Part shown: piece by piece, positions 3,121 through 6,694 of the stretch
Layout of the letters: the number at the start of each line of letters is the position of its first letter
Position numbering within the stretch: the first letter of the stretch is position 1
From: Dehalococcoidia bacterium
GTDB lineage: Bacteria > Chloroflexota > Dehalococcoidia > JACPQF01
Reading direction: 5' to 3'
Assembly: GCA_030650265.1 (NCBI GenBank)
Contig: JAUSEJ010000396.1
Span: 1 to 6,694, forward strand
Length of the DNA: 6,694 bases
Position numbers and translations under genes: made by a program
Notes under the pieces: generated by a model
The model's input: the letters and a program-made list of their open reading frames with translations, nothing else
Told to the model about the DNA's origin: nothing
Databases searched by the model: none

Positions 3121-3126
3121 GGTAAT

Positions 3127-3151
3127 CCGACAGATCGGTCCGATCTGTCGG
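3127..3151. repeat. 25-bp perfect palindrome upstream of asp23 promoter
   Basis: The arms CCGACAGATCGG (3127-3138) and CCGATCTGTCGG (3140-3151) are exact reverse complements around a single T at 3139. The centre is about 64 bp upstream of the predicted asp23 transcription start, a distance compatible with an upstream activator or operator site. As RNA it could fold as an 11-bp stem with a three-base loop, but no T run follows. No regulator family is recognised from the sequence. Confidence 0.65.
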
Positions 3152-3166
3152 ATCAGTCAGATCAGC
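3131..3166. repeat. Four imperfect 9-bp tandem units, each with GATC
   Basis: The units are CAGATCGGT (3131-3139), CCGATCTGT (3140-3148), CGGATCAGT (3149-3157) and CAGATCAGC (3158-3166). GATC recurs exactly every nine bases at 3133, 3142, 3151 and 3160. The array overlaps the right part of the palindrome and stops one base before the -35 element of asp23. It may be an intergenic low-complexity repeat or a set of phased protein-binding sites. Confidence 0.6.
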
Positions 3167-3167
3167 A

Positions 3168-3196
3168 TTGAACCAACTCCCGTACAATGATATAAT
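3168..3196 (+). promoter_or_regulatory. Strong sigma-70-type promoter of the asp23-fakA-fakB operon
   Basis: TTGAAC (3168-3173) is separated by exactly 17 bp from a perfect TATAAT (3191-3196), which is preceded by TGa (3188-3190), an extended -10. The start site is expected near 3203, giving a leader of about 18 bases that contains AGGAGG (3213-3218). The TTG that could open a longer asp23 reading frame at 3168 is the -35 box itself, which argues that the longer start is false. Confidence 0.85.
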
Positions 3197-3221
3197 GGTG
3201 CTATCTGCAGAGAGGAGGGCG

Positions 3222-3590
3222 ATGCCAAAATCTATGCCACAAGGAAAGCGACTTGGCAAAGTTGAAGTATCCGCGGAAGCGGTGGCCACGATTGCCGGAC
3301 GAGCGGTGATCCAATCCTATGGCGTCGTCGGCATGGCCTCTCGACGGTTCAAGGATGGCATCGCCACATTACTGCACCACGATAGCTGCAGCAAAGGCGT
3401 GGACGTCCACCTCAACAGCGATCAGGTAATAATCGATCTGTTTGTGGTCGTGGAATACGGGACCAGGATATCCGAGGTCGCCAAGAACATCATGTGCAAC
3501 GTGAAGTTTGCCGTCGAGCAATCCTTGGGTACACCGGTTGCTCAGGTCAATGTAAACGTGCAGGGCCTCAGAATTAGCGGCAAGGATTGA
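3222..3590 (+). CDS. Asp23/Gls24 (YloU-like, DUF322) family protein
   Basis: A 122-residue protein of the Asp23 family. Members in Firmicutes are small cytosolic or membrane-associated proteins linked to cell-envelope stress; the biochemical role is not settled. Family features seen are the opening GKVEVSAEAVATIAGRAV, the central SYGVVGMA, an alternating hydrophobic strand around VIIDLFVVVEYG, the helix NIMCNVKFAVEQ and the closing VAQVNVNVQGLRI. No signal peptide or membrane segment is present. The ATG at 3222 follows AGGAGG by three bases; an in-frame TTG at 3168 falls on the -35 promoter element and is rejected. The gene stands directly before fakA, the same order as yloU-yloV in Bacillus, with a 43-base gap and no terminator, so it is probably the first gene of the operon. 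Confidence 0.9.
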   Translation: MPKSMPQGKRLGKVEVSAEAVATIAGRAVIQSYGVVGMASRRFKDGIATLLHHDSCSKGVDVHLNSDQVIIDLFVVVEYGTRISEVAKNIMCNVKFAVEQSLGTPVAQVNVNVQGLRISGKD

Positions 3591-3633: not shown

Positions 3634-4884
3634 ATGAAGAGTATGAGCAAAGGAGACGTCATCGCTCCTCTCAAGACACCTCCCATACACCATGGCGACG
3701 GCCAATGCCTGAAAAGGGCTTTGCAGGCCGCCACAAACTGGCTCGAGAGACACGCCGAGGCCATCAACGCCCTCAACGTCTTCCCCGTGCCCGATGGCGA
3801 CACCGGCAGCAACATGCTACTCACCATGCAATCCACGGTTAAGGCCGTTGCTGCCTCGAACGAGTCTGACATTTCCATAATAGCCCGGGATATGGCCCAC
3901 GGCGCTTTGATGGGGGCTCGCGGCAATAGTGGTGTCATTCTGTCCCAGATTCTCCGCGGTTTCGCCCAGGGTCTAGACAAGAGGCAAAACATCGACGGCG
4001 AATCGCTCGCCGCTGCCCTCACTCAAGCCTCAGTCATCGCCTACAAAGGGGTCAGCAAGCCGGTCGAGGGCACGATGCTTACGGTCATCCGGGAGGTCGC
4101 GGAGTCTGCAAGGGAGGCCGCCAGCCAATACACGGATCTGGTGACCATACTAGAAACCATCAGCAGCGCCGCTAAGTCGTCTGTAGCCCGCACTCCCTCC
4201 CTCCTTAAGGTGCTGCGGGAAGCGGGAGTGGTGGATGCCGGCGGGCAGGGGATCTATGTGCTATTTGACGGCGTCCTGCGTTACTTACACGGTGAACTGA
4301 CCGAAGGAGCAACACCCGCTTTGGCGCAGTATGCGGCGCCGGCGCCAAGAGCGACCGGCGCGCCAGGTGAGGGAAGAGAATACGGTTATTGCACCGAGTT
4401 CCTCCTCGAAGCACAGGGACTAGATCTCGACGGGATGCGGGAAAGAATCAACGCACTCGGCGATTCCGCCCTTGTCGTCGGCGATGGCAACCTGGTACGG
4501 GTTCACGTTCACACCTTCGATCCCGGCGCCGCCCTATCCCTGGCGACCTCTGTCGGCGACCTCTGTCGGCGTCCTTCGTCAGGTCAAAGTGGAGAACATG
4601 CAGGACCAGCATCAGGATTTCCTCGCCGCTTTCGTTCCTCCAACCAGGCAGACCGATGGCATCGCGACCGTCGCCGTGGTCGCCGGCAAAGGCCTCAGCG
4701 AAGTCTTCACCAGTCTGGGAGCCAACAAGATAGTGCATGGTGGACAAACGATGAACCCGAGCACGGAGGAACTGCTGGCCGCTGTAGAGTCCGTGCCTTC
4801 CAACAGGGTCATTCTTCTCCCCAACAACAAGAACGTCGTCTTGACCGCTGCTCAGGTCCCTGCTCTTTCCACCAAGAATGTTAG
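3634..4884 (+). CDS. fakA: FakA N-terminal fragment: kinase and middle domains with aberrant tail
   Basis: The product predicted if the frameshift is real has 416 residues. Residues 1-308 are genuine. The DhaL kinase domain (about 25-215) carries the Mg-ATP motif NALNVFPVPDGDTGSNM (45-61, with D54 and D56) and GARGNSGVILSQ (94-105), plus VVDAGGQGIYVLFDGVL near its end. A linker rich in Ala and Pro follows, then the middle domain with YGYCTEF (C253) and VHVHT (H291, H293). These three residues appear to match zinc ligands described for the Staphylococcus enzyme, a match made from memory. From residue 309 the reading is out of frame: 108 Arg-, Ser- and Gln-rich residues with no family resemblance, ending at the TGA at 4882-4884. 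The fragment lacks the C-terminal domain thought to bind FakB. Confidence 0.7.
   Translation: MKSMSKGDVIAPLKTPPIHHGDGQCLKRALQAATNWLERHAEAINALNVFPVPDGDTGSNMLLTMQSTVKAVAASNESDISIIARDMAHGALMGARGNSGVILSQILRGFAQGLDKRQNIDGESLAAALTQASVIAYKGVSKPVEGTMLTVIREVAESAREAASQYTDLVTILETISSAAKSSVARTPSLLKVLREAGVVDAGGQGIYVLFDGVLRYLHGELTEGATPALAQYAAPAPRATGAPGEGREYGYCTEFLLEAQGLDLDGMRERINALGDSALVVGDGNLVRVHVHTFDPGAALSLATSVGDLCRRPSSGQSGEHAGPASGFPRRFRSSNQADRWHRDRRRGRRQRPQRSLHQSGSQQDSAWWTNDEPEHGGTAGRCRVRAFQQGHSSPQQQERRLDRCSGPCSFHQEC
4542..4571. repeat. 13-bp exact tandem duplication that frameshifts fakA
   Basis: GGCGACCTCTGTC occurs at 4542-4554 and again at 4555-4567, followed by four more bases of the same period (GGCG, 4568-4571). 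Periodicity of 13 fails at 4541 and at 4572. Since 13 is not a multiple of three, the second copy shifts the frame by +1. Loss of one copy restores the family-consensus protein. Confidence 0.95.
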
Positions 4885-5311
4885 GGTGATTCCCACCCAC
4901 ACCATCCCTCAGGGCATTGCTTCGCTCATGGCCCTGAACACTGAGATCGACCTCGATGACAACGCCTCGGCAATGACCAACGCCAAGGACTCGGTCAGGA
5001 CCATCGAGATCACCAGAGCCGTGAGGGAGGCAAGGTTGAATGGTTTGCATATCTCAGAGGGTCAGATCATCGGCCTTCTTGATGGAGAACTGGTGGCGGC
5101 TGGAGAGGATTCTACGCAAATAGTCGAAAATCTTCTCGACAAGGCCCGCGCCGCCGCCGGAGAAGTTATCACCATTTTTTGGGGAGCGGCGATGGATCCC
5201 GTCGAAGTGGAAAGAACGGCTGGCGTTGTTCGCGCCAAGTATCCAGACCAACAAGTCGACATCGTCGAGGGTGGGCAACCCCATTATCACTACATTATTT
5301 CTGTAGAATAG
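4598..5311 (+). CDS. fakA: FakA C-terminal fragment (FakB-binding domain)
   Basis: Corresponds to residues 318-554 of the restored protein, in the +1 frame relative to the kinase half. Conserved elements are GGQTMNPSTEELL (365-377), LPNNKN (391-396), PTHTIPQG (416-423) and the terminal GGQPHYHYIISVE, all typical of the YloV C-terminal domain. Homology begins upstream at about 4571, but no start codon lies there. The ATG at 4598 has GGAG (4591-4594) three bases before it and could in principle start an independent 237-residue polypeptide. The open frame also extends up to a TTG at 4472, but residues before about 4556 are out-of-frame reading of the kinase half and should be ignored. Separate expression is inference only. 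Confidence 0.6.
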   Translation: MQDQHQDFLAAFVPPTRQTDGIATVAVVAGKGLSEVFTSLGANKIVHGGQTMNPSTEELLAAVESVPSNRVILLPNNKNVVLTAAQVPALSTKNVRVIPTHTIPQGIASLMALNTEIDLDDNASAMTNAKDSVRTIEITRAVREARLNGLHISEGQIIGLLDGELVAAGEDSTQIVENLLDKARAAAGEVITIFWGAAMDPVEVERTAGVVRAKYPDQQVDIVEGGQPHYHYIISVE

Positions 5312-5320
5312 GTAGAATAG
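5303..5320. repeat. 9-bp tandem duplication across the fakA stop codon
   Basis: GTAGAATAG occurs at 5303-5311 and 5312-5320 with no mismatch. The first copy encodes Val-Glu-stop at the end of FakA. The second gives a backup in-frame TAG at 5318-5320 and lies just before the fakB ribosome binding site. It is in frame and should be harmless; it widens the fakA-fakB gap to 20 bases. Confidence 0.9.
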
Positions 5321-5331
5321 AGGGTAAGAGA

Positions 5332-6177
5332 ATGACGACAAATCAAGCCGTCCGCGTGGTTACAGATTCGACTGCCGACCTAACTCAGTCTATCGTCGAC
5401 GAACTGGGGATAACGGTAGTTCCCCTCAACGTCCATTTCGGCGACGAGGTCTATAAAGAGGGGGTGGAGATCACCAACGCGCAGTTTTACCAGAAGCTCC
5501 AGGCAAGCGCCAAGCTTCCCACGACATCTCAGCCGACTGTCGGAGATTTCGCCAGCGCCTACCGCGCTTTGATGCCAGCCAGTGTCGTCTCTATTCACGT
5601 CGCCGAGAAGCTGAGTGGCACCTACAACTCAGCCCGCCTGGCAGCCGAGAGCGTCACGGAAACGCGGATTGCCGTTATCGACTCTCAATCCACCACAATT
5701 GGTCTCGCCTGGTCAGTGATTTACGCTGCCAAAGCGGCGAAAGCCGGAGCCAGCTTCGAGGAAGTTGTCGCCGTGGTTAAGGAAACCATGGGCCGCGTCC
5801 GGCTCGTAGCGGCGCTGGAAACCCTCGAATACCTGCGGCGGGGTGGGAGAATAGGCCCGGCGTCGGCCTTTCTTGGCTCGTTGCTGAGCATAAAGCCCCT
5901 CATCTACGTTCAGGACGGCGAAGTGCGTCCCCTTGAGAAGGTACGTACTCAGGCAAAGGCCATGCAGCGATTAGTGGAGATCGTATCTCAAACGGCGCCT
6001 TACGACGACCTGGCGGTCGCCCACGCCCAGCGACCGGAAGCCGCCGAAGAGGTTCGCCGGGCTCTCAGTGCCATCCACCCCTACGACCGGATTCTCCTCA
6101 CCGAAATCGGCTGTGTGGTCGGCACTCACGCCGGGCCAGGGACGATTGGCGTCGCCGGCACGAGGAAGAACATTTAG
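5332..6177 (+). CDS. fakB: DegV family fatty-acid-binding protein (FakB-like)
   Basis: DegV/EDD-fold proteins bind a fatty acid and present its carboxylate to FakA for phosphorylation. The 281-residue protein is the usual length. Motifs seen are VVTDSTADL (9-17), PTTSQPTVGDF (63-73), the ligand-binding LSGTYNSARLAA (94-105), VIDSQSTTIGLAWSV (115-129), ALETLEYLRRGGRIG (161-175), LLSIKPLIYVQDGEVRPLEKVRT and HAGPGTIGVA with H266 near the C-terminus. The Ser/Thr, Arg and His positions match those that hold the fatty-acid carboxylate in known FakB proteins, by family knowledge. There is no signal peptide. The ATG at 5332 follows GAGGG (5320-5324) by seven bases. The frame stays open further upstream into fakA, but that part lacks family similarity. 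Adjacency to fakA supports the FakB role; the preferred fatty acid cannot be inferred. Confidence 0.93.
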   Translation: MTTNQAVRVVTDSTADLTQSIVDELGITVVPLNVHFGDEVYKEGVEITNAQFYQKLQASAKLPTTSQPTVGDFASAYRALMPASVVSIHVAEKLSGTYNSARLAAESVTETRIAVIDSQSTTIGLAWSVIYAAKAAKAGASFEEVVAVVKETMGRVRLVAALETLEYLRRGGRIGPASAFLGSLLSIKPLIYVQDGEVRPLEKVRTQAKAMQRLVEIVSQTAPYDDLAVAHAQRPEAAEEVRRALSAIHPYDRILLTEIGCVVGTHAGPGTIGVAGTRKNI

Positions 6178-6186
6178 AGGCCCTAT

Positions 6187-6694
6187 GTGAAAACGGATAC
6201 CGCTTTTTCCGGGACGAAGGGAGGCCCGCGCACCCCAACTCCTGTTGATCCTATGCCTCTCGCGAAGGTACAGGAGCTGGTGAAGATACTTTCTCACGAG
6301 AAGAGGCTGGGAGGCAAAGACAGCGCGGTGATCGGCGGGCTGGACGGGTATCTGTCACGGTGGAGGGAACACATAACTTCGCTGGCCGCCGGTTCCTGCC
6401 TGGTCGCGGATTCGCTTCGACTCGTCGCCCCTCTCCATGATTATTCACTTATTTCGACCGCCCAAAGAGGAGACCTTCTCTCAGTGGTTATCAGCGGGCT
6501 ATCTGCACTGGCTAAAGGCACCCCTTCGTCTCTGGCAACTCATTCTGTCAGTCAAGCAAGTACTCCTACCAAGACGGACGCTGAGGCTTTAGCCGGAAAA
6601 CGAGTACTGGCACCGGCTGAAGCCTCGACCTCCAGCGCCTCTTCATCAGGAGGGGCGACGTCCCCTGGAAAGACAAGGGGTCCGGCCTCCGGCG
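6187..6694 (+). CDS. recG: Probable RecG helicase, N-terminal extension only (3' partial)
   Basis: The frame is open from a GTG at 6187 to the window edge (169 codons plus one base). AGAGG (6176-6180), overlapping the fakB stop TAG, lies six bases upstream and supports this start; an ATG at 6253 is an alternative without a visible ribosome site. Residues 25-61 (LAKVQELVKILSHEKRLGGKDSAVIGGLDGYLSRWRE, quoted by its ends LAKV and RWRE) resemble the extra N-terminal region that precedes the wedge domain of RecG in Chloroflexota and some deep-branching bacteria. Residues 112-169 are a low-complexity Ser/Ala/Thr/Pro/Gly linker, probably disordered. No helicase motif lies inside the window, so RecG is an inference from this region and from the frequent yloV-recG neighbourhood. 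RecG remodels stalled replication forks and Holliday junctions using ATP. Confidence 0.55.
   Translation, partial: MKTDTAFSGTKGGPRTPTPVDPMPLAKVQELVKILSHEKRLGGKDSAVIGGLDGYLSRWREHITSLAAGSCLVADSLRLVAPLHDYSLISTAQRGDLLSVVISGLSALAKGTPSSLATHSVSQASTPTKTDAEALAGKRVLAPAEASTSSASSSGGATSPGKTRGPASG

Follow-up and report, generated by a model that had tools for sequence, protein, structure and literature searches.

Gene neighbourhood of fakA

The window, by which we mean the whole 6,694-nucleotide stretch of Dehalococcoidia contig JAUSEJ010000396.1 that was analysed and that is probably the entire contig, carries nadE and glnA on the reverse strand, followed on the forward strand by asp23, fakA, a degV/fakB gene and the start of a recG-like gene (Table 1). 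The same gene order is present in the nearest relative found, G026 (3.2 Mb; locus L138), whose FakA (P0001) shares 73% protein identity with the N-terminal fakA ORF over the matched 72% of that ORF. The recG-like ORF has no Pfam match itself; the RecG of G026 at the matching place is confirmed by Pfam. The promoter listed ahead of asp23–fakA–degV is weak on its own, because two such sites were found against 1.6 expected from shuffles.

Two further differences from G026 lie upstream of fakA. A perfect inverted repeat with 14-bp arms, ATCCGACAGATCGGTCCGATCTGTCGGAT (3125–3153), is situated just upstream of the −35 element of the asp23–fakA–degV promoter; the block aligns partly with G026, in which no perfect arm of at least 8 bases is left. 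From its sequence the inverted repeat is a candidate operator. G026 in turn has a 74-residue DUF1858 gene (PF08984, 2.4e-17; L138 4258–4482) between glnA and asp23 that has no window counterpart in the alignment.

Table 1. Features of the fakA locus, in window coordinates
Feature	Position	Strand	Remarks
Sigma-70-like promoter, TTGAAC-17-TATAAT, TG before −10	3168..3196	+	Ahead of asp23–fakA–degV
Asp23 family gene, first of likely operon	3222..3590	+	Profile search on 3210–3590
ORF, N half of fakA	3634..4884	+	Dak2 residues 51–215; FakA-like_M 249–311
ORF, C half of fakA, +1 frame	4472..5311	+	Complete FakA-like_C
First copy of 13-bp unit GGCGACCTCTGTC	4542..4554	+	In frame with DAK2 half
Second identical copy of GGCGACCTCTGTC	4555..4567	+	13 = 1 mod 3, frame moves +1
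GGCG after second copy	4568..4571	+	Equals first four bases of 13-bp unit
237-aa product P0121	4598..5311	+	Window-encoded entry in protein collection
DegV/FakB-type fatty-acid-binding protein gene	5332..6177	+	Directly after fakA; open; DegV profile 2–276 of 280
N-terminal part of recG-like gene	6187..6693	+	Cut by contig end; 49% identity over 127 residues to L138 RecG ORF

The domains of FakA are divided between two reading frames

The window's fakA is a broken member of the FakA/YloV family (TIGR03599), its domains lying on two ORFs. The N ORF contains the DAK2 kinase domain (PF02734, 4e-44, profile positions 1–173 of 174) and part of the middle domain (FakA-like_M, PF21645, positions 1–66 of 80), and FakA-like_C is present in the +1 frame (PF13684, positions 1–216 of 216). 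Against TIGR03599 the N ORF scores 357 bits and the C ORF 239.6 bits, neither half reaching the cut-off of 396.1. As far as the available portions of its descriptions go, S. aureus FakA has the same Dak2, FakA-like_M and FakA-like_C domains (PMC9136124, PMC11617999; PDB 7w7h, 6w6b), and the likeness extends to Cys/His/His ligands before the break and to an adjoining FakB-type gene. In the window, by contrast, a 13-bp tandem duplication interrupts the frame after residue 308.

All three ligand positions precede the break. In alignment A3 (32 of the 120 proteins listed plus the window ORF; A4 holds 31 of the 120; structure alignments), C253 is nearly invariant, and H291 and H293 are invariant. 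Judged by their motifs, they would be the counterparts of S. aureus C240, H282 and H284. Family sequence continues in frame in the N ORF to G308 (base 4557), after which an out-of-frame tail leads to the stop codon. In the C ORF it begins at about 4562 and continues in the +1 frame as far as the stop codon at 5311, and the first methionine of P0121 aligns with M315 of an intact relative, where the helix preceding the C domain begins. The earlier note had counted 246 open codons after the break, and our count from 4571 to the stop agrees; the 554 residues that it gave for the protein with one copy removed agree by arithmetic only, no such sequence having been built.

A perfect 13-bp tandem duplication lies at the frameshift

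The 30 bases at 4542–4571 consist of GGCGACCTCTGTC, GGCGACCTCTGTC and GGCG, with exact identity between 4542–4558 and 4555–4571, a 17-base match at offset 13. Tandem Repeats Finder (TRF) reports a repeat at 4542–4575 with a period of 13, 2.6 copies and a score of 61. A 17-base match was reached in none of 500 dinucleotide shuffles of the window (offsets 8–60), whose longest exact match averaged 9.2 with a maximum of 13, the latter attained in three of the 500. These results bear out the initial description of an exact, back-to-back 13-bp duplication in fakA at the point where the frame moves by +1. Related loci totalling 930,522 bases (138 of the 148, after 10 that overlap had been set aside) contain six perfect tandem duplications with a unit of 11–40, so that about 0.04 would be expected per window; four of the six have units that are multiples of three and none has a unit of 13.

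A single copy is the state of the family

At the repeat site G026 (L138) lacks 13 bases that the window has. A single-frame FakA match was obtained in all 148 relative loci, and the site is readable in 146 of them, L141 and L148 not covering it. Because some loci show one gene twice (L008/L085; L086/L137/L138), we counted distinct sites, of which there are 137, six of them with rows shorter than 78 bases. A comparable repeat occurs in none of the 137, the longest run being 9 (offsets 6–20) as against 17 in the window. Loci L001–L080 are the best 80 of 589 confirmed, which biases this portion of the survey towards genes that are intact and match well. The copy number of relatives' fakA, which the earlier note had proposed as a check, is one wherever the site can be read. 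Across the sequences compared, one copy is the family state and the duplication is the derived state.

Wider samples were also searched for broken genes. The C half is matched in 344 of 393 genomes of a class sample and in 338 of 400 of a phylum sample, with no internal stops in C-half matches among the matches listed for the two samples. Open frames shorter than 500 number at least 11 among the matches listed for the class sample; the 10 that were fetched each gave one single-frame match (G373 was excluded, its match beginning at base 2 of its contig). Seven of these 10 loci come within 5 bases of a contig end and L142 within 73, and L145 and L147 are matched over residues 13–550. A second case of broken fakA among relatives was thus rejected for the 10 short-frame loci, eight of which stop at or near a contig end. 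No sister sequence of more than 73% identity is present among the matches listed (120 of 8000 scored proteins), so no second allele of the source organism, with one copy or two, was seen.

The break does not look old

Ka/Ks against G026 (NG86) is 0.168 for the N half (305 codons) and 0.139 for the C half (245 codons). Both halves being under similar purifying selection, the break looks recent, although the test is weak for very recent relaxation because Ks is about 1.2, near saturation. The claim that fakA is not an old pseudogene accords with these values.

Conserved columns, counted over 119 proteins of 500–600 aa among 240, give a finer view. Where conservation is at least 97%, the window departs at 4 of 45 columns (C half) and 2 of 83 (N half), as against 2 and 1 in the G026 protein, a slight hint of relaxation after the break. 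Where it is at least 90%, departures number 6 of 66 (C) and 8 of 111 (N), with 4 and 4 in G026. The relatives depart at 0–8 (C) and 0–11 (N) of these 90% columns, with medians of 2 and 2, placing the window above their median in both halves and inside their range. At columns conserved to at least 80%, the window departs at 10 of 88 (C) and 17 of 137 (N) and G026 at 11 and 12.

Predicted products and their activity

The N ORF encodes 416 residues, and its structure model is confident to residue 312. Residues 313–416 have a pLDDT below 50 and are disordered; pLDDT is also low in the N-terminal residues and in the linker 224–248. In the model of an intact relative, a strand (residues 306–314) and a helix (315–325) of the middle domain come directly after the position of the break, and the C domain starts at residue 336. 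Both the strand and the helix are cut off from the N product. On these models, the polypeptide made from the allele should have the ATP site and the Cys/His/His ligands, no FakB-docking domain and an out-of-frame tail of about 105 residues. With initiation at ATG 4598, translation of the C half would yield helix 315–325 first and then the whole C domain.

What such a product might do can be gauged from S. aureus FakA. In the accessible portion of one study, its isolated domains are inactive, its C domain binds FakB, and FakA_NL, which has the N and middle domains and is without the C domain, is active with a Km for FakB1 of 0.99 as against 0.09 μM (PMC9136124). A zinc site in the FakA middle domain is needed for dimer stability and function, according to the part available of a second (PMC11617999). 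Fatty-acid kinase activity is expected to be lost or strongly reduced in the window because FakA is truncated and the FakB-docking domain is not normally connected, and this is likely because the family sequence of the N product ends before the end of FakA_NL. The loss may be incomplete, since S. aureus FakA_NL stays active in the text available. We conclude from this analysis that activity is likely to be lost or strongly reduced, with residual activity possible.

G026 has one match each for Dak2, DegV, PlsX and PlsY and so no second kinase, but acyl-phosphate would be possible via PlsX. The genome from which the window derives is presumed to be alike in this content.

Origin of the duplication and alternative explanations

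Perfect copies and microhomology (GGCG) at both edges, as slippage would leave them, are found here, and an ancestral state of one copy is seen in G026 and the other readable relatives. For a random 13-bp unit, an edge ambiguity like that of GGCG would arise at 1.3% and 2.1% of window positions (either side) and at 1.0% in L138; some 4-mer is repeated at offset 13 somewhere in 30 of the 137 relative sites. G026 is without the upstream GGCG, and the microhomology is therefore read from the window alone. At the level of sequence, the GGCG edges fit slipped replication between short repeats and are not expected of an arbitrary mis-join. The window shares perfect head-to-tail copies and a 4-bp direct repeat at the edges with the known class of microhomology-mediated slippage duplications, and differs from that class in nothing beyond the gene affected. 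The event belongs to a commonplace class of mutation, in a place of potential interest.

We propose that replication slipped between two GGCG tetramers 13 bases apart, which would have duplicated 13 bp in an otherwise intact fakA. The duplication would shift the frame and yield a truncated FakA made up of the ATP-binding domain, an incomplete middle domain and a tail of about 105 residues. As the FakB-docking domain would not be connected in the normal way, little or none of the fatty-acid kinase activity would be left, and de novo phospholipid synthesis via PlsX and PlsY could continue. A recent loss-of-function mutation in fakA by slippage is the best reading, to which we assign a probability of about 0.6, with an assembly or sequencing artefact as its main rival. 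We infer all three of its parts, namely slippage as the cause, the presence of the allele in cells and the loss of activity.

Several other origins were considered and rejected. The DNA folding z-score of 0.35 gives no support to a hairpin-driven duplication. For a phage origin, the sole match to a phage record covers 45 bases over a conserved FakA stretch, and the two-copy 26-mer has no match in viral contigs. An RNA element was set aside, no Rfam family scoring at its gathering threshold. No mutation rate for a 13-bp tandem repeat was found in the available portions of the literature on fakA frameshifts, slippage rates and reversible tandem duplications.

An artefact would mean that the organism has a single copy and that the contig contains a mis-join or derives from a few faulty reads; this is unlikely on balance but has to be taken seriously. 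The typical assembly frameshift is a one-base indel or miscall, whereas the window has an exact 13-bp duplication with microhomology, and the 4-bp direct repeat that bounds the unit has a chance frequency of only 1.0–2.1% of positions. Usual assembly k-mers are longer than 17 bp, so that graph ambiguity would not easily create the repeat. The rest of the contig also argues against a faulty sequence, its remaining genes having no break before they end or reach the edge of the contig, and nadE, glnA, asp23 and degV aligning with G026 over their lengths. In favour of an artefact, the two-copy allele is known from one short contig only (P0121 has one member, on one contig of 6694 bases), the two-copy form occurs in no relative read (0 of 137 distinct sites), and slippage during amplification is also conceivable. 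Spurious frameshift pseudogenes do occur in low-coverage assemblies, as reported in the accessible part of PMC11017572, and the window resembles them in having a frameshift in a conserved gene on a short contig. Coming as it does from a single 6.7-kb contig of one sample, the allele may be absent from the cells.

Three readings in which the split gene would retain a function are much less probable. The repeat could be a reversible phase-variation switch, in which slippage between one and two copies would activate and silence the fatty-acid kinase within the population; some of the cells would then forgo fatty acids that are recycled or come from outside. Slippage could act on a perfect 13-bp tandem repeat, the frame behind it is open and selected, and with only one Dak2 match and one DegV match in the nearest relative, switching would have a clear effect. 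Contingency loci usually keep their mutable tract, but here none is kept at any of the 137 distinct relative sites, where offset runs do not exceed 9, selection for the repeat tract itself leaves no sign, and the matches listed (120 of 8000 scored proteins) include no second allele. Slipped-strand phase variation, as far as the available text of PMC12817950 describes it, likewise involves a tandem repeat within a coding sequence, the frame depending on the number of copies; the window differs from it in having two copies only, no tract in the relatives read and no sign of two alleles. We therefore consider a switch very improbable. Of the three readings offered by the earlier note, recent loss is favoured and assembly error persists as the main rival, and the reversible switch lacks positive support, there being only two copies and a comparable repeat at 0 of 137 distinct relative sites.

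A split enzyme, its halves made separately with the C half starting from the internal ATG 4598 and working in trans, would be in keeping with S. aureus FakA, whose domains fold independently and whose activity is restored by N and L supplied separately, in the part of PMC9136124 available. The window's C half is complete and opens with the helix that leads into the C domain; a GGAG lies 3 bases ahead of ATG 4598. This spacing is short, however, and G026 has the same bases, there as part of conserved coding sequence. Neither product contains strand 306–314. The out-of-frame overlap between the N ORF and the ORF from 4598 amounts to 287 bases, which allows no stop–start coupling, and 148 of 148 relative loci keep one frame. 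On these grounds a split enzyme is highly unlikely. Rejoining of the frames by a programmed +1 ribosomal shift or by transcriptional slippage is the least probable reading of all. Both frames are open across the region, but the N frame has no stop codon until 4882, homopolymers in 4531–4620 are all of 3 bases or fewer, and folding is not unusual (z-score 0.35, DNA parameters).

Possible consequences of the allele and a second duplication nearby

If the slippage allele is real, the fatty-acid kinase would have been knocked out recently in nature, in a lineage whose nearest relative has one FakA, one FakB homologue and PlsX and PlsY; this would suggest that cells in that habitat can do without the kinase. 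The allele also touches annotation. The C half (P0121) is the sole window-encoded entry found in the protein collection by two protein searches, the N half being absent among the 120 matches listed for its own query, and the kinase domain may be missed in annotation because only the C half was found as an entry. Gene callers forbid such long same-strand overlap, which may be a reason for the missing N-half entry.

A second perfect duplication, GTAGAATAG twice, lies at 5303–5320 on the forward strand over the fakA stop codon and leaves the protein unchanged. It is absent in G026. Perfect tandem duplications of 9 bp are not rare, with 24 in the 930,522 bases of related loci. Two fresh-looking tandem duplications (4542–4567 and 5303–5320) lie less than 0.8 kb apart, and the nearby 9-bp duplication could hint at something systematic, whether biological or technical.
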